Position numbers and translations under genes: made by a program. DNA of 54,341 nucleotides, from positions 1 through 54,341 of IMG/VR virus record IMGVR_UViG_3300013126_001949. One strand, given 5' to 3'. Under the pieces are notes generated by a model, which worked only from the letters and a program-made list of their open reading frames with translations, was not told where the DNA came from and searched no databases. Of the stretch, positions 27,715 through 39,129 are shown piece after piece; position 1 is the stretch's first letter, and the number at the start of each line of letters is the position of its first letter. The stretch is from a virus.

Positions 27715-28035
27715 ATGATTAAAGGAAAAATTACTCCAATTCGTGATAATGTACTAGTATCCAATATGGATTTTGATAATAGAACTACCAGTACTGGAAT
27801 TCTTTTATTAAATGATGATGGAAAAACAGAAGGCATTAGACCAAGATGGGGTCGTGTTTGGGCTGTGGGTGATGAACAGCAAGATGTCAAAATTGGTGAT
27901 TGGGTTCTAGTTGAACACGGCCGTTGGACTCGAGGCATTAATGTTGAAACTGCCAATGGAGAGGAAACTGTAATTCGTCGTATTGATAATGATTGTATTT
28001 TGGCTGTAGCTGATGAGCGACCCTCAGAGTTTTAA
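27715..28035 (+). CDS. GroES-type co-chaperonin (gp31-like)
   Basis: The 106-residue protein has the 10-kDa chaperonin layout: an N-terminal PIRDNVLVSNMDF strand, a mobile-loop region (NRTTSTGILLLND) with the hydrophobic Ile-Leu-Leu needed to dock on GroEL, a W-x-V-G-x-x-x-x-D-V-K-I-G-D-W-V-L-V-E-H beta core, and a terminal ILAVADE strand. T4 gp31 replaces host GroES so that the capsid protein gp23 can fold. An AGAGG ribosome site precedes it. The end overlaps a small zinc-finger gene. Confidence 0.85.
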   Translation: MIKGKITPIRDNVLVSNMDFDNRTTSTGILLLNDDGKTEGIRPRWGRVWAVGDEQQDVKIGDWVLVEHGRWTRGINVETANGEETVIRRIDNDCILAVADERPSEF

Positions 28036-28179: not shown

Positions 28180-29100
28180 ATGCGTGAACTTTGGGTAGAA
28201 AAATATAGACCACGTACTCTTTCTGAGTACGTTTTCAGAGATGATCATCAACGTAAACAAGTTGAAACTTGGGTTAAAGATCGTACTATTCCACATCTAT
28301 TATTCAGTGGTAATGCTGGTATTGGTAAAACTACATTGGCTAAAATCTTATTGAATGAATTAGAAATAAATGATTTAGATATTTTAGAAATCAACGCTAG
28401 TCGTGTTAATAGCGTAGATGATGTTCGTGGACGTATTGTTAACTTTGCACAAATGATTCCATTTGGTGATTTTAAGGTTATACTGCTTGATGAGGCTGAC
28501 TACTTAAGTGTTAACGCACAGGCAGCTCTACGTGGTGTAATGGAGGAATATCATACCACAGCAAGATTTATTTTAACCTGTAATTATCCTAATCGTGTTA
28601 TTCCTGCTCTACACAGTCGTTGTCAAGGCTTTCATATTGAACGCATAGATCAAACAGAATTTACAGCTAGGGTAGCCACAATTCTTGTTGAAGAAAATAT
28701 AGAATTTGAACTAGATACTTTAGATACTATAGTAAAGGCTTCATATCCTGACTTGCGAAAATGTATTAACAGTGTACAAATGAATTGTATTAATAATGTA
28801 TTACTGCCACCAGATACAGATGACAATACTGAATCTGACTATAAAATAGAAATGGTACAATTATTTAAAGCAGGTAAAATCGGTGACGCTCGTAAACTAG
28901 TTTGTAGCCAAGCTAGACCAGAGGAAATGGAAGATATCTATCGTTGGCTTTATGATAATATTGAACTATTTGGTGATGATGCTAAACAAGAAAAAGCAAT
29001 TTTAATTATTAAACAGGGACTTGTTGATCATACACTGGTTAGCGATCCTGAAATTAATCTTGCTGCTACATTGATTAGACTGGCTCATGTTAATGACTGA
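28180..29100 (+). CDS. 44: Sliding clamp loader large subunit (gp44-like)
   Basis: The 306-residue AAA+ protein resembles T4 gp44 and RFC small subunits: WVEKYRPRTL at the start, Walker A GNAGIGKTT (about residues 44-52), Walker B ILLDEADYL, sensor-1 ILTCNYPNR and the SRC arginine-finger motif HSRCQGF. It uses ATP to open the gp45 clamp and load it at primer-template junctions. The partner gp62 is not recognised in this window; the next gene is DUF2452-like. GAGG precedes the ATG and a perfect early promoter lies just upstream. Confidence 0.9.
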   Translation: MRELWVEKYRPRTLSEYVFRDDHQRKQVETWVKDRTIPHLLFSGNAGIGKTTLAKILLNELEINDLDILEINASRVNSVDDVRGRIVNFAQMIPFGDFKVILLDEADYLSVNAQAALRGVMEEYHTTARFILTCNYPNRVIPALHSRCQGFHIERIDQTEFTARVATILVEENIEFELDTLDTIVKASYPDLRKCINSVQMNCINNVLLPPDTDDNTESDYKIEMVQLFKAGKIGDARKLVCSQARPEEMEDIYRWLYDNIELFGDDAKQEKAILIIKQGLVDHTLVSDPEINLAATLIRLAHVND

Positions 29101-29581
29101 TAAACCAAATAGTGCCAAGGGACGTACAAGTTTTGATGCAGAGTTAGGCACAGGACTTGTAAACTTTTTTAACAAAAATGTAACTCCTTATCCTACTGAT
29201 GTGGGTGCTCCTGCTTTTGATCTTGTTCCTGTTGAGAAACAAAAAGACATAATGCTTAATGTAGCACGTCTACATGCTCAACAAGAATATCAACGTATTA
29301 TGGATCTTGTGGCAGTGTTACAAAAACAGGCTGATCAAATCAAGCGTAGATTAGAACTTACTGATGCTGTACATGCTGCCAAGTATCAGTTTCAGATTGC
29401 TCATGGGAATACGTATTGGCTCTTGTACGACACAAAAGATCAGTGTACAAGATTAAGTATACTGGGTCCTAACGATTGGAGTAGCGGACCTCCAGTACAA
29501 TATGAATATATGACTAGGATGAAATGGATGGGCGACTATTCTTGGATAGAAGTAGACGCCCAAAATCAACCTATTAATTAA
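29093..29581 (+). CDS. DUF2452-family conserved phage protein
   Basis: The protein has the family's characteristic opening KGRTSFDAELGTGLVNFFN, then PYPTDVGAPAFDLVPVE, a helical segment (QQEYQRIMDLVAVLQKQADQ) and a C-terminal W-rich beta part (W-L-L-Y-D and DWSSGPPVQYEY). The family is common in marine T4-like phages and bacteria and its function is unknown. The ATG overlaps the end of gp44; another ATG two codons upstream is also possible. It meets phoH tail to tail, overlapping by 4 bases. Confidence 0.75.
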   Translation: MTDKPNSAKGRTSFDAELGTGLVNFFNKNVTPYPTDVGAPAFDLVPVEKQKDIMLNVARLHAQQEYQRIMDLVAVLQKQADQIKRRLELTDAVHAAKYQFQIAHGNTYWLLYDTKDQCTRLSILGPNDWSSGPPVQYEYMTRMKWMGDYSWIEVDAQNQPIN

Positions 29582-30294
29582 TCACCGTATATCTCTAATA
29601 CCTCCTTTACGGCTTGATGACGTTCGATATCCTTGGCTTCAAATCTAACGATATCGATGTGTTCTGTTTTTTTGCGATTTCCCAGTAGGTTGCAAAATTC
29701 GATCAAACCGTTGTCAGCAAGACGATCTGCTTGTGCCAAATCTCCTGTGACTACCATACGGCTTTGATCTCCCAATCTTGTTAGCAGCATTTTCATTTGA
29801 TTTGCTGTAGCATTCTGCATCTCATCGGCTATAATCCAGGAACGTTTGAAAGTGCGTCCTCTCATATAGGCCAAGGGGCTGATCTCTATAACTCCTTCAC
29901 TTAACATTTCTACTATATCTCTTTGACTATAATATTCTCCTAAAACGTCAAATATAGGCTTAGTCCATGGCTCCATCTTTTGATTTAATGTGCCAGGCAA
30001 AAAGCCAAGATCTTCATCTACACTAACGGCGGGTCTTGTAACTATGAGCTTGTCTACCTTGCCCTCTTGAAAAAACTTTATTCCAGCTTGAACTGCTAGC
30101 AGAGTTTTGCCTGTACCTGCTGGTCCTATGGCAAATAATATACTATTATCTTCATTCTGTAGTTTTTGAATATATGTTTTTTGTGCTTCATTGCGAGGGT
30201 AAAGATGTACTCTGCAATTTTTTTGCGGGATGAATGTGGCAAAATCAATCACATTCACATTTGAGGTAAAGCGTTTTTTCACTCTTTTGCTCAT
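29578..30294 (-). CDS. phoH: PhoH-like ATPase
   Basis: The 238-residue protein is a compact PhoH: Walker A GPAGTGKTLL (residues 57-66), TRPAVSVDEDLGFLPG, the Walker B-like strand IIADEMQNAT and TGDLAQADR. PhoH is a P-loop ATPase related to the ATPase part of RNA helicases. It is very frequent in marine phages, and its role is unsettled (phosphate stress or RNA metabolism). It is transcribed opposite to its neighbours and preceded by a structured leader whose last hairpin covers the GGAG ribosome site. Confidence 0.92.
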   Translation of the reverse strand: MSKRVKKRFTSNVNVIDFATFIPQKNCRVHLYPRNEAQKTYIQKLQNEDNSILFAIGPAGTGKTLLAVQAGIKFFQEGKVDKLIVTRPAVSVDEDLGFLPGTLNQKMEPWTKPIFDVLGEYYSQRDIVEMLSEGVIEISPLAYMRGRTFKRSWIIADEMQNATANQMKMLLTRLGDQSRMVVTGDLAQADRLADNGLIEFCNLLGNRKKTEHIDIVRFEAKDIERHQAVKEVLEIYGD

Positions 30295-30296
30295 CC

Positions 30297-30357
30297 AGTA
30301 ACTCCTACTTAGAAAAGTAGGACTTGTAGTACCGCCCGATATCTACAGAGGTCCTAC
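30297..30357 (-). promoter_or_regulatory. Structured phoH leader with two mutually exclusive hairpins
   Basis: Read on the minus strand, the leader holds arm A GTAGGAC (30357-30351), arm B GTCCTACTT (30323-30310 region, with the core GTCCTAC at 30323-30317) and arm C AAGTAGG (30310-30304). A can pair with B over 7 bases, with an inner TGTAG/CTACA stem. B can instead pair with C through CCTACTT/AAGTAGG around a TTCT tetraloop. Arm C overlaps the GGAG ribosome site of phoH. A conserved phoH RNA motif has been described from marine metagenomes in phoH leaders; whether this is a member needs a covariance search. Confidence 0.6.
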
Positions 30358-30412
30358 AATTTTATTTAACCTTCTACCTAATTATCATAAGGTTACACTA
30401 GAATTTTAACAC

Positions 30413-30420
30413 GATAAATA
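30413..30420 (+). promoter_or_regulatory. T4 late-type promoter octamer
   Basis: GATAAATA lies 23 bases before the ATG of the next plus-strand gene and is divergent from phoH. It would open the late transcript that continues through the lysis genes to the terminator at 35516. Confidence 0.68.
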
Positions 30421-30443
30421 ATATAGTAAATTCTGGGCCCATT

Positions 30444-31028
30444 ATGAAAGATATTTTAGACGTCATTCGCAACGTAGATACCATCTATAACAACAATAGT
30501 ACTTTGGCTGTGCTTAAAGACTTTGAAAGAGTACTGGATGAAATGGATATCTACGTATATAAAAACTGGTTAGATGGTGAATTACTCAGCGGTCCCAAGA
30601 TAAGTAGACATTGGGTTAGTGCTGAATTCATGTGGCCAAAGAATAAAATGCCTGATCCAGATGGTGCTAAACGTCTTATGGAAATAGGCTGTAGAGTAAA
30701 GTTTACTCGAGATGAACTAATAGAGCCACGTAAAATACGCACTCCAGATGATTTTAGACCAGGTACTAAAAAGGGTAAACTAGACGCACATCCTGTATGG
30801 GTTGTAAAAATACTAATGCCTAAAAAATTAGTATTTGATATCTTTAATAGTTACATGGACCGTATCAGAGAAGAACGTAAAGGCGACCAAAAGAAACAAC
30901 AGCCTACACCAATGGCTCCACCAATGCAACCAGGTATGATGCCAGCTCAACCAGGTATGATGCCAGCTCAACCAGGTATGGCACCAGCAGCACCTATGGC
31001 AGCACCAGTAGCAGGAGCACCAATGTAA
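30444..31028 (+). CDS. Conserved phage protein with Pro/Met-rich repeat tail
   Basis: The 194-residue protein has a globular N-terminal part of about 150 residues (DVIRNVDTIYNNNSTLAVLK, later WVVKILMPKKLVFDIF) and a C-terminal low-complexity tail of Pro, Gly, Met, Ala and Gln. The tail contains PGMMPAQ repeated in tandem. I recall homologues in marine T4-like phages near tail and baseplate genes, but no function is known. It follows a late promoter and overlaps the next start (TAATG). There is no clear Shine-Dalgarno sequence. Confidence 0.68.
   Translation: MKDILDVIRNVDTIYNNNSTLAVLKDFERVLDEMDIYVYKNWLDGELLSGPKISRHWVSAEFMWPKNKMPDPDGAKRLMEIGCRVKFTRDELIEPRKIRTPDDFRPGTKKGKLDAHPVWVVKILMPKKLVFDIFNSYMDRIREERKGDQKKQQPTPMAPPMQPGMMPAQPGMMPAQPGMAPAAPMAAPVAGAPM
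30927..30989 (+). repeat. 21-base tandem repeat, three copies
   Basis: A 21-base unit starting CAACCAGGTATG is repeated at 30927, 30948 and 30969. The first two copies are identical and the third is diverged in its second half. It encodes the QPGMMPA repeats in the tail of the gene above, so copy number can change without shifting the frame. Confidence 0.8.
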
Positions 31029-33287: not shown

Positions 33288-34202
33288 ATGAAAAAGTCAA
33301 TTTTAGTTCTCGGAACCACATTATTATTGGCCAGCTGTGCTTCTGGTCCAAGCTCATATCAACTTTATGCAGATACCCAGGCTAAAATTGCACAGGCCAA
33401 TGCTATTGCAGATACAGCAAGATATAATGCACTACTTGAAATAGCCAAGAACGGTGATAGTGCTGCCAAAGTAGCCGCAGTATTAAGTATACAAATGGGA
33501 CAGGGTGGTGCAGGATCAAGACCACAGCAACAGGTGGCTGCTCCAGAAGATTGGGATACAAAACTTCTTAAATGGGCAGGTGTACTATTACCAAGTGTTA
33601 CACAAATTTATGGCATACACAGTCAAAGACAAATAGCAGTCACACAAAGTAATAATGCCGCTGCTACTGCTCAAAGCACTAATAATACATTTGCTACTAT
33701 GAGTACAAATATGGCCAACAGTAATACAAATATTGCTAAGGCTGGTTTTGATGCAGTAGGTGCTGCTAACACTGCTATTACAACCATAGCAAACAGTTCA
33801 ATGACCTCAGTAACCAATGTGGCTAATAATGGTATTACCGGTGTTACAAGTACATCTAAAGAAGGATTATCGGCAGCTACAAGCATAAGTACAGCAGGTA
33901 TCACAGGTGTTAATAATGCTGCTAATGCTGGACTTACTGCTACCACTAATTTAGGCACGACTAGTATAAATGGACTTATTACTGCTACTAACAATGCTAA
34001 CACTACTATAACTAGTCTTGGCACACAGGCTAGTAATAATATTACTACTGTAACTGGCGGATACCGTAGTGCTTTAGATACAGCAATAAGTAAGCTAAGT
34101 GGTACGACTACTACAACTACTACTACAACTACCAATACTACCAGCACTAATAATAATGTATGCCCGGTAAGTCAACTTTTAACTAACGGTATATGTCAGT
34201 AA
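33288..34202 (+). CDS. Lipoprotein with long Asn/Thr/Ala-rich repeat region
   Basis: The 304-residue product has a lipoprotein signal with lipobox LASC (Cys17). A helical region follows (QAKIAQANAIADTARYNALL), then a long low-complexity region of Asn, Thr, Ala and Ser in short quasi-repeats (NNAA, TNLG, ANAG). It includes a run of ten Thr codons and ends with a short Cys-containing tail (VCPVSQLLTNGICQ). The function is unknown; as a surface lipoprotein made late it might aid lysis or change the host envelope. It directly follows the o-spanin candidate. Confidence 0.68.
   Translation: MKKSILVLGTTLLLASCASGPSSYQLYADTQAKIAQANAIADTARYNALLEIAKNGDSAAKVAAVLSIQMGQGGAGSRPQQQVAAPEDWDTKLLKWAGVLLPSVTQIYGIHSQRQIAVTQSNNAAATAQSTNNTFATMSTNMANSNTNIAKAGFDAVGAANTAITTIANSSMTSVTNVANNGITGVTSTSKEGLSAATSISTAGITGVNNAANAGLTATTNLGTTSINGLITATNNANTTITSLGTQASNNITTVTGGYRSALDTAISKLSGTTTTTTTTTTNTTSTNNNVCPVSQLLTNGICQ
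34104..34133 (+). repeat. Threonine-codon microsatellite
   Basis: Ten consecutive Thr codons (mostly ACT with ACA and ACC) form a trinucleotide-like tract near the end of the lipoprotein gene. Length changes in units of three would keep the frame. Confidence 0.7.
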
Positions 34203-36388: not shown

Positions 36389-36890
36389 CATACTAAGAGA
36401 ACAAATGCCTGATTTTGATTTTGAGAATCCCATAATGGATCCAAAACAAATTGAAAAAGAAATGATAGAACTAATGGTTAAAGAAAGAGGTATAGGTCTT
36501 AGTGGAAATCAAGTTGGGCTTAGAGCTAGAGTAATTACTATCTTTCCTAGAGACATTAGTTTAGAAACAGGACCATTTGCCATGTTTAACCCAAGGCTAC
36601 AGGCAGCAAGTGATCAATTATTGGAGTCAATTGAAGGATGTTTGAGCTTTCCTAAAATGCTTATTCCAGTTAAAAGACCAAAAATTGTTGTTGCCGAGTA
36701 TCTTGACAGCGATGGCAATAATTGTGTAATATCACTACATGACATAGATGCTAAATGTTTTTTACATGAACTAGATCATTTAGATGGTATCTGTTTTACA
36801 GATCGTGTAAGTAAACTCAAGCAAAGTATGGCTATGAAAAAATTCGACAAAATAAGGAAAAAATATGGTAGAGCCCAGCGACAATCTTAA
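36363..36890 (+). CDS. def: Peptide deformylase
   Basis: The 175-residue enzyme has the three deformylase motifs: GIGLSGNQ (residues 43-50), EGCLS with metal ligand Cys93, and HELDH with metal ligands His135 and His139 and catalytic Glu136. It removes the formyl group from nascent proteins. Phage deformylases are known from cyanophages, where they are linked to rapid processing of photosystem proteins; here no photosystem gene is in view. It overlaps both dnaJ and clpA by 26 bases, so the three are one translational unit. Confidence 0.9.
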   Translation: MNLITFPNDILREQMPDFDFENPIMDPKQIEKEMIELMVKERGIGLSGNQVGLRARVITIFPRDISLETGPFAMFNPRLQAASDQLLESIEGCLSFPKMLIPVKRPKIVVAEYLDSDGNNCVISLHDIDAKCFLHELDHLDGICFTDRVSKLKQSMAMKKFDKIRKKYGRAQRQS

Positions 36891-39129
36891 AAAAGTTTTT
36901 GAACAGGCCATCGAACTAGCTAAAAATTATAAACATGAATACTTAACATTAGAACATTTATTATACTCAATGTTAGGTGAAGAGCATTTTGTTAATACTA
37001 TACAAACATATGGCGCTGATTCAGAATACATTAAAAAGAATTTAGAGCACTACTTAAAGAATAAACTTGATGATATTATTAAAGAAGAAGCCACTAAACC
37101 AAAAAAGACACAGGCAGTAGAACGTGTGCTTAATCGTGCCTTTACACAGGCTCTTTTCAATGGTCGACAAACTATGGAACTAAGTGATGTATTCCTAAGT
37201 ATTATGAGTGAGAAGCGTAGCTATGCCAGTTATTATATTCAACAGGCTGGGGTAGATAAGAATAAGTTTGCAGATTATCTCAATAGTGAAGTACAAACTG
37301 AAGAAGAGGAAGTCACTGATCATCAAGTAGATCGTGCCCTAAAAGCATTTACCACAAATTTGAATGATCTTGTCAAACGTAATAAAGTTGATCCAGTGGT
37401 AGGCAGAGTCACTGAACTGGAAAATATTGCCTTAGCCATGGGTCGTCGTAATAAAAATAATGTTATGCTAGTCGGTGATCCAGGTGTTGGCAAAACTGCT
37501 ATTGCAGAAGGACTGGCTTTTAATATTGAAAAAGGTCATGTACCGGAATTTTTAAAGGATTACAAGGTTTATAGTTTAGATATTAGCAGCATGTTAGCTG
37601 GTAGTAAATATCGTGGAGATTTTGAAGAACGTTTTAAACTAGTGCTCAAAGGCCTACAGACCAAGGGTAAAACAATATTGTTTATTGATGAAGCTCATAT
37701 GATCAGCGGAGCAGGCAGTGCAGGTAATAGTGCTAATGACCTTGCTAACATGATGAAACCTGCTCTAAGCAAGGGTAATATCAAAGTAGTGGCCAGTACA
37801 ACTTGGGAAGAGTACCGCAAGTACTTTGAAAAAGATCGTGCTCTAATGCGTAGGTTCCAACGTATCACGGTGGATGAACCAACATACGATGTAACTATTC
37901 AAATCCTTAAAGGTGTTAAAAAATACTACGAGCAGTTCCATAAAGTTAAAATTACAGATGATGCTATTCAAGCTGCTATAAAACTCAGTGTAAAATATCA
38001 AACAGATAAAAAATTACCTGATAAAGCAATTGACCTTATTGATTGCGCCTGTAGTCGTTTCAATCTTAAATTAGATCAGGAACGTATTATTGGTGAACAC
38101 GAAATTCAATTTGAGCTAAGTCAGGCTATTCAAATGCCTGAAGAACAAATTGCTGAAACAGAGAGCAATAACTTGGCTAATCTTGAAAAGCAAATCAATG
38201 ATGAAGTATTTGGGCAGAATGATGCTGTTACAGAACTTGTAGATAAAATACTAGTCGCTCGTGCTGGTCTTAAGCCTGAAAACAAGCCTATTGGATCATT
38301 TGTTTTTATGGGGCCAACTGGATGTGGTAAAACAGAAACAGCTAAGACTTTGGCCAAACATCTTGGTGTAAAACTTATACGCTTTGATATGAGTGAGTAT
38401 CAAGAAAAACACAGCGTAAGCAAGTTGATTGGGAGTCCTCCAGGATATGTTGGATTTGAGGAAAACGCAGGTCTACTTATTACTCAATTACAAGAGAATC
38501 CATATTGTGTATTATTATTTGACGAAGTAGAAAAGAGTCATCCAGATGTTAGTACAATCCTATTACAGATGATGGACAATGGTTTTGTAACTGGCAGCAA
38601 TGGTAAGAAAGCAGATTGTAGAAATATTATCCTAATCCTTACTACAAATGCTGGTGCTCAGGCTGCTGAAAAGAATCAAATTGGTTTTGGAAAACAGGAA
38701 AAGGACTATGATGATAAGGATCTAAAAAAGTTCTTTGCTCCTGAGTTTAGAAATCGTTTAGATGCTATAATCACATTTACTAAGTTGAATAAGGATACAA
38801 TGTATAAAGTTGTTGTTAAGTTTATTGATGAACTTAAACGACAAGTATCAGACAAGGGCATTCGCATACGTATTAACGATGCTGCTATAAATCACTTGAT
38901 TGAAAAGGGGTTTGATAGTAAAATGGGTGCCCGTCCACTACAACGTGTTATAGACAAGGAGATCAAACGTCCTCTAAGTCGTATGATGCTGTTTGGTGAA
39001 CTTAAGGATGGTGGTTCGGCAGTAATTGGTTTGGAGAATGATCAAATCACCGTGACAAAACGTGTAAGAGCTAGTAAAGTAACTGAAAATGAATCACCTG
39101 ATATTATTACCCACGAAGAGAACCAATAA
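36865..39129 (+). CDS. clpA: ClpA-like ATP-dependent protease ATPase subunit
   Basis: The 754-residue protein has the ClpA plan: an N-domain (HEYLTLEHLLYSML), a first AAA+ module with Walker A GDPGVGKTA (about residue 204) and FIDEAHMISGAG, and a second with GPTGCGKTE (about 482), LLFDEVEKSHPDV and FAPEFRNRLD. There is no ClpB-type middle coiled coil. The IGF tripeptide (about residue 605, in NQIGFGKQ) sits where ClpA carries its ClpP-docking IGL loop, so it may work with host ClpP. No ClpP gene is seen here. AAGGAAA precedes the ATG. Confidence 0.9.
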   Translation: MVEPSDNLKKVFEQAIELAKNYKHEYLTLEHLLYSMLGEEHFVNTIQTYGADSEYIKKNLEHYLKNKLDDIIKEEATKPKKTQAVERVLNRAFTQALFNGRQTMELSDVFLSIMSEKRSYASYYIQQAGVDKNKFADYLNSEVQTEEEEVTDHQVDRALKAFTTNLNDLVKRNKVDPVVGRVTELENIALAMGRRNKNNVMLVGDPGVGKTAIAEGLAFNIEKGHVPEFLKDYKVYSLDISSMLAGSKYRGDFEERFKLVLKGLQTKGKTILFIDEAHMISGAGSAGNSANDLANMMKPALSKGNIKVVASTTWEEYRKYFEKDRALMRRFQRITVDEPTYDVTIQILKGVKKYYEQFHKVKITDDAIQAAIKLSVKYQTDKKLPDKAIDLIDCACSRFNLKLDQERIIGEHEIQFELSQAIQMPEEQIAETESNNLANLEKQINDEVFGQNDAVTELVDKILVARAGLKPENKPIGSFVFMGPTGCGKTETAKTLAKHLGVKLIRFDMSEYQEKHSVSKLIGSPPGYVGFEENAGLLITQLQENPYCVLLFDEVEKSHPDVSTILLQMMDNGFVTGSNGKKADCRNIILILTTNAGAQAAEKNQIGFGKQEKDYDDKDLKKFFAPEFRNRLDAIITFTKLNKDTMYKVVVKFIDELKRQVSDKGIRIRINDAAINHLIEKGFDSKMGARPLQRVIDKEIKRPLSRMMLFGELKDGGSAVIGLENDQITVTKRVRASKVTENESPDIITHEENQ

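Follow-up and report, generated by a model that had tools for sequence, protein, structure and literature searches.

The phoH gene and its leader

The window, i.e. the whole viral DNA stretch of 54,341 nucleotides that was analyzed, carries phoH as a lone minus-strand gene, adjoined by a clamp-loader gene and neighbored also by genes for virion structural proteins (window 28180-31028). phoH is one of the most widespread auxiliary genes in aquatic phages and serves as a marker gene, and we know of no established role for it in phages. The gene is preceded by a leader of 66 nt (minus strand, 30357-30292), which reads from 30357: GTAGGAC CTC TGTAG A TATC GGGC GGTA CTACA A GTCCTAC TTTTCT AAGTAGGAG TTACTGG ATG. 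The features of the locus are as follows.

29578..30294, minus strand: phoH, 238 aa, a lone minus-strand gene (PHROG 170 PhoH-like, E 1.8e-70)
30302..30306, minus strand: Shine-Dalgarno sequence AGGAG, 7 nt upstream of the ATG (30294)
30303..30310, minus strand: arm C, AAGTAGGA, overlapping the ribosome site and forming hairpin P4 with arm B
30315..30323, minus strand: arm B, GTCCTACTT, partner of arm A (state 1) or arm C (state 2)
30325..30329, minus strand: 3' side of inner helix P2, CTACA, to which arm A also pairs as its near arm when in state 2
30330..30341, minus strand: apical P3, TATC/GGTA with GGGC loop (in relatives ATC-N(0-3)-GGC-GGTC)
30343..30347, minus strand: 5' side of inner helix P2, TGTAG, from folding and alignment
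30351..30357, minus strand: arm A, GTAGGAC, partner of arm B (state 1, P1) or of the inner 3' arm (state 2, P1')
30357, minus strand: putative transcription start at the first G of arm A, from T4 late promoter spacing applied to the promoter position
30363..30370, minus strand: T4-type late promoter element, GTTAAATA, 5 nt from arm A

A preliminary description of this DNA had proposed that arm B pairs either with arm A, which frees the ribosome site, or with arm C, which hides it, and all the elements that it described (arms A, B and C, the inner helix, and the loop) were located on the minus strand where it had placed them. State 1 consists of P1 (A/B), P2 (TGTAG/CTACA), and P3 (ATC/GGT, closing a loop whose last bases are GGC), and state 2 of P4 (B/C) and arm A on its near arm (P1'). 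Folded by itself, the A/B hairpin had a predicted energy of -17.9 kcal/mol (z = -3.4 vs shuffles), and the predicted fold of the entire leader favored the B/C state (-22.0 kcal/mol, z = -1.9 vs shuffles). Arm A is not idle in state 2: it takes the inner 3' arm as its new partner (GTAGGACC / GGTC-A-CTAC in most relatives; in the window, GTAG/CTAC plus ACC/GGT), and both states are thus complete folds. P4 as predicted covers the Shine-Dalgarno sequence in part, its last G remaining open. An intrinsic terminator was ruled out, as there is no U-run 3' of P4. The loop segment ATCGGGCGG at 30340-30332 has its sole exact copy here within the window, and the other late-promoter leaders of the window are short or fold more weakly, the phoH leader being the exception.

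Transcription from T4 late promoters begins about six bases past TATAAATA, and this spacing puts the putative start at the first G of arm A and not downstream of that arm, the case that the preliminary description had regarded as incompatible with its proposal. An AAATA element preceded arm A (GTAGG) in 99 of 99 distinct leaders, 5 nt away in 92 and 4 nt away in 7; AAATA itself belonged to the search expression for these leaders, in which the spacing was left free (3-7 nt). The element appeared in relatives as TTAAATA/GTAAATA and at times as TAAGTA, the latter being found in the same position in further relatives. Each of the five longer contigs searched for the T4 late sigma factor gp55 encodes a homologue (31-34% identity, E ~1e-6), and there was no gp55 match in the 54-kb window, which is a fragment. 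With a TATAAATA-like promoter at a fixed distance and gp55 in relatives, the phoH RNA can be classed from its sequence context as a T4-type late transcript.

With respect to the surroundings, phoH is likewise inverted and close to the clamp loader in Pseudomonas phage Deifobo (L308), and close to the clamp loader but on the same strand in Atu_ph07 (L309). The window further encodes a GroES-like co-chaperonin/head morphogenesis protein (27715-28035; PHROG 931/3188), an ATP-dependent protease of 754 aa (36865-39129; PHROG 4871), and a 304-aa ORF with a lipoprotein-like start followed by long Thr/Asn/Ala-rich repeats (33288-34202).

Distribution and conservation of the two folds

Three pattern scans over 2.9 million viral contigs gave at least 145 fetched loci carrying the leader pattern. 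PhoH was encoded directly downstream in 137 of them; the remaining eight reach the contig end, which falls after the opening phoH codons in seven and within the leader itself in one (L208). None of the viral matches listed (at least 145 loci) had the pattern before any gene other than phoH, and no second copy of the motif was present in the 2.4 Mb of fetched loci. Since the 26-base pattern has 0 expected occurrences in shuffled windows and recurs solely before phoH among the viral matches listed, the leader is not a chance occurrence. When phoH loci were collected by protein search, without use of the leader, it was found in 74 of 79 usable loci; four had the one-base variant GGCCGGT and one (L300) a diverged leader. 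A repeat of the protein-first search with another query also gave 74 of 79.

A DNA search of cultured phages with the leader gave no match, and no such motif is present in the phoH leaders of Phosso, Deifobo, and Atu_ph07, the closest relatives in culture. In 84,980 bacterial and archaeal genomes, the core pattern had no true copy, its four chance matches all lying in unrelated sequence. More than a hundred related uncultured phages share the arrangement with two alternative folds. Selecting loci by pattern biases how conserved arm A and the apical element look, and substitution rates were therefore taken from the protein-selected set.

To state 1, the alignment assigned 98.7% paired cells. 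Along the phoH tree, 45 substitution events fell in P1, of which 41 left a standard pair in place. There was one double compensation (A-U to G-C, in L257), and every P1 pair was kept in the most diverged leaders, L300 (GCGGGAC/GTCCTGC, with a U-A replaced by C-G) and L425 (GTGGGGC/GTCCTGC). The covariation score of state 1 by itself was not above shuffles (353 of 500), as arm A hardly varies. Support for state 1 is thus drawn from the pattern of compatible substitutions and a few double changes.

In state 2, pairing was kept in 57 of 66 events in the first eight pairs of P4, which also displayed four independent double compensations (U-A to A-U and back), and none of 500 shuffles reached the covariation score of P4 and P1' combined. 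P1' hardly varies and was accordingly hardly put to the test by substitutions. The distal pair 52-64 of P4 gained no support from substitution events. Of the 39 transitions in arm B, 36 lay at the four positions in which a G-U pair can still form and 3 at the three that do not tolerate G-U (binomial p ~1e-6). The tolerated transitions retain pairing with both A and C, the pattern expected of an arm with two partners.

The alignment of the relatives' phoH leaders that the preliminary description had called for thus found both stems to be under pairing constraint. Its proposal of two mutually exclusive folds, one of which hides the ribosome site, agrees with the substitution patterns, the double compensations, and the modeled energies across the relatives. 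The covariation that it held to be decisive for the two stems was found in B/C; in A/B, pair-keeping and a double compensation were present, but not a score above shuffles.

In the apical element, GGCGGTC (alignment columns 26-32) had zero substitution events among 72 distinct leaders supplied by the searches that had not selected for the leader, the GGCCGGT variant and three diverged leaders having been set aside; in the phoH genes that follow these leaders, third codon positions had a mean of 13.9 events each. GGCGGTC is absent in L300 and L395 and shifted to GGCCGGT in L245-L249. The GGTC part can be accounted for by P1', but pairing does not account for GGC in every subtype: GGC persists where GAAC has replaced the CTCT that faces it. 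The invariance of the element suggests a trans-acting factor, and the element would be the expected candidate site for binding of a protein or ligand.

The covariance-model search that the preliminary description had proposed was run with Rfam 15, and neither the window nor eight relatives produced a hit at gathering score; at E up to 10, there were chance-level matches alone, mostly to snoRNAs. That a phoH RNA motif is already known from marine metagenomes could not be confirmed: besides the negative Rfam result, no such motif was found in the papers searched, and phoH is not mentioned in the 2010 list of 104 RNA motifs (PMC2864571).

Predicted folding order and possible control of the leader

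Folding models were used to compare the two states in 99 leaders. The difference between forced P1 and forced P4 was +0.96 +/- 2.1 kcal/mol at 37 C and lay within 4 kcal/mol in 92% of the leaders, so in the models the two states are nearly isoenergetic. In the ensemble of the growing transcript, P1' had a probability of 0.99 before arm B was made and P1 of 0.97 thereafter, and in that of the full leader P4 had 0.64 and P1 0.31. The barrier between P1 and P4, a heuristic direct-path estimate, averaged 13.9 kcal/mol (11.7 in the window, 9.9 to 17.9 among relatives). A 13-bp 5' hairpin in L300 and L395 is predicted to lock state 1, which means that switching is not essential in every relative; across the diverged leaders L300 and L394-L397, this hairpin appears to fix the form with a free ribosome site.

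From these models, we infer an order of folding. The RNA would start at the first base of arm A, from the T4-type late promoter, and arm A would pair first with its near arm (P1') as the RNA emerges. Once arm B appears, P1 together with the inner hairpin (P2/P3) would displace P1', and the ribosome site, transcribed next, would be free while P1 and P2/P3 hold. The finished leader could then refold into P4 plus P1', by which the ribosome site would be covered and phoH translation turned off. Given the small energy gap and the high predicted barrier, the decision between the states probably falls during transcription or depends on a factor, which would either hold the invariant apical element (ATC-N-GGC-GGTC) or actively refold the RNA.

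Sequence comparison demonstrated both folds, their conservation, the promoter position, and the exclusivity to phoH among the matches listed, and together with the models these make a two-state translational leader for phoH well supported. We regard the leader as a cis-acting, bistable translational element of a phage late mRNA, the choice being set during transcription or by a factor with PhoH as the prime suspect, and give this reading a probability of roughly 0.62. Since the element accompanies a single phage gene among the matches listed and has no true copy in the bacterial genomes scanned, we consider control by a factor from the phage more likely than a classical metabolite riboswitch. 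The most economical candidate would be a phage protein, above all PhoH, which would then exert feedback on its own synthesis. Mycobacterial PhoH2 carries ATP-dependent RNA helicase activity (PMC7390352), and the E. coli PhoH protein YbeZ was reportedly studied together with the 16S-processing factor YbeY (PMC5101352). These findings make PhoH a candidate regulator, and by analogy we favor control by a protein, possibly PhoH itself, whose family includes RNA helicases. The more specific proposal that PhoH, as a presumed RNA helicase, binds or remodels its own leader as its natural substrate, and that the unrelated class 2 leader described below evolved the same feedback independently, is tentative, and we would not count on it.

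Three other explanations, each of which we consider quite improbable, account for parts of the data. The invariant GGC-GGTC could bind a small molecule in state 1 and thereby expose the ribosome site. The apical nucleotides without a pairing explanation in all subtypes and the two-state architecture around the ribosome site would fit such a metabolite riboswitch, but an element confined to phoH of these phages among the matches listed, with no true copy in the bacterial and archaeal genomes and no Rfam match, would not, and neither would the small size of the aptamer (about 20 nt within an otherwise simple hairpin) or its loss in L300 and L395. The riboswitch label in the preliminary description is not supported, the element having one target gene, no true copy in the bacterial genomes, and no known ligand.

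The near-equal state energies, sequential folding, and high predicted barrier would suit a timer in which new mRNA is translatable in state 1 and shuts itself off by refolding, with neither ligand nor protein. We doubt this, as the invariance of GGCGGTC is left unexplained and barriers of 9.9 to 17.9 kcal/mol would make the timing vary by orders of magnitude among relatives. Finally, the leader could act as a 5'-terminal hairpin that protects the late mRNA from decay, with the complementarity between arm B and the ribosome site as a secondary feature. The hairpin does begin at the putative +1, the phoH mRNA of a sister group also opens with a hairpin, and L300 and L395 are predicted to keep the hairpin only; the argument against this low-probability explanation is that those bases of arm C which the ribosome site does not require (GT and the A/T-variable distal pairs) stay matched to arm B. 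It is very unlikely that the leader is an RNA thermometer, in which warming would melt the hairpin that contains the ribosome site, since the predicted accessibility of the site did not rise strongly and changed from just 0.30 to 0.38 between 5 and 45 C (mean of 99 leaders).

Relation to known regulatory RNAs and to other phoH leaders

Like translational riboswitches that sequester the ribosome site, the phoH leader has arms that exclude each other, the Shine-Dalgarno sequence being covered by one of them, and a conserved unpaired element; it differs from them in having one target gene, no bacterial copies, no match to an Rfam riboswitch, and no known ligand. Structured regulatory RNAs are also found in other T4-like phages, namely the cis-regulatory manA and wcaG motifs of cyanophages (PMC2864571) and a glnA-type element in the OM43 phage Melnitz (PMC9004378), from all of which the phoH leader differs in sequence and structure, with no covariance-model match. 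Moreover, manA and wcaG occur before several kinds of genes (PMC2864571), whereas the phoH leader occurs before phoH alone among the matches listed.

Autoregulated leaders are known for T4 proteins and ribosomal-protein operons. They share with the phoH leader the single gene, the phage- or operon-specific hairpin, and the invariant recognition element near the ribosome site, the difference being that the binding protein of the phoH leader is only putative.

Judged from sequence and models, phoH, which ranks among the commonest viral genes of unknown function, appears to have an on/off switch that has so far gone undescribed and that many uncultured phage contigs carry. That a conserved switch serves phoH alone suggests that the dose of the gene product is tightly controlled during infection, and the leader offers a concrete RNA for seeking the factor in control. 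Should PhoH turn out to be this factor, the leader would count as a first natural substrate of the protein.

A second class of leader, unrelated in sequence, lies 60-90 nt upstream of phoH in phages whose PhoH is about 60% identical (L314-L376). Its sequence runs GTGTTCGG..CGGACACTACGG..GTCCGTGCCTAACAC..AAGGAGGGCTAACC. As in the phoH leader of the window, there is a late promoter, a hairpin from +1, and a first arm that swaps between near and far partners. The first arm can pair with the near arm in 35-38 of 38 sequences (GTGTTC/GGACAC) and with the far arm in 33-38 of 38 (GTGT/ACAC), and the near arm has GTCCG as an alternative partner, with compensatory changes. The ribosome site is often within a mini-hairpin (AAGG..CCTT), which is followed by a conserved GGCTAACC. 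No Rfam match was obtained in the four class 2 loci tested (L046, L048, L052, and L076).

A third group of related phoH genes (L017-L045 and L377-L393) has a short leader, TGCAGGTCGATC..GGAGG, preceded by the same type of late promoter, and a TTG start is frequent in this group.
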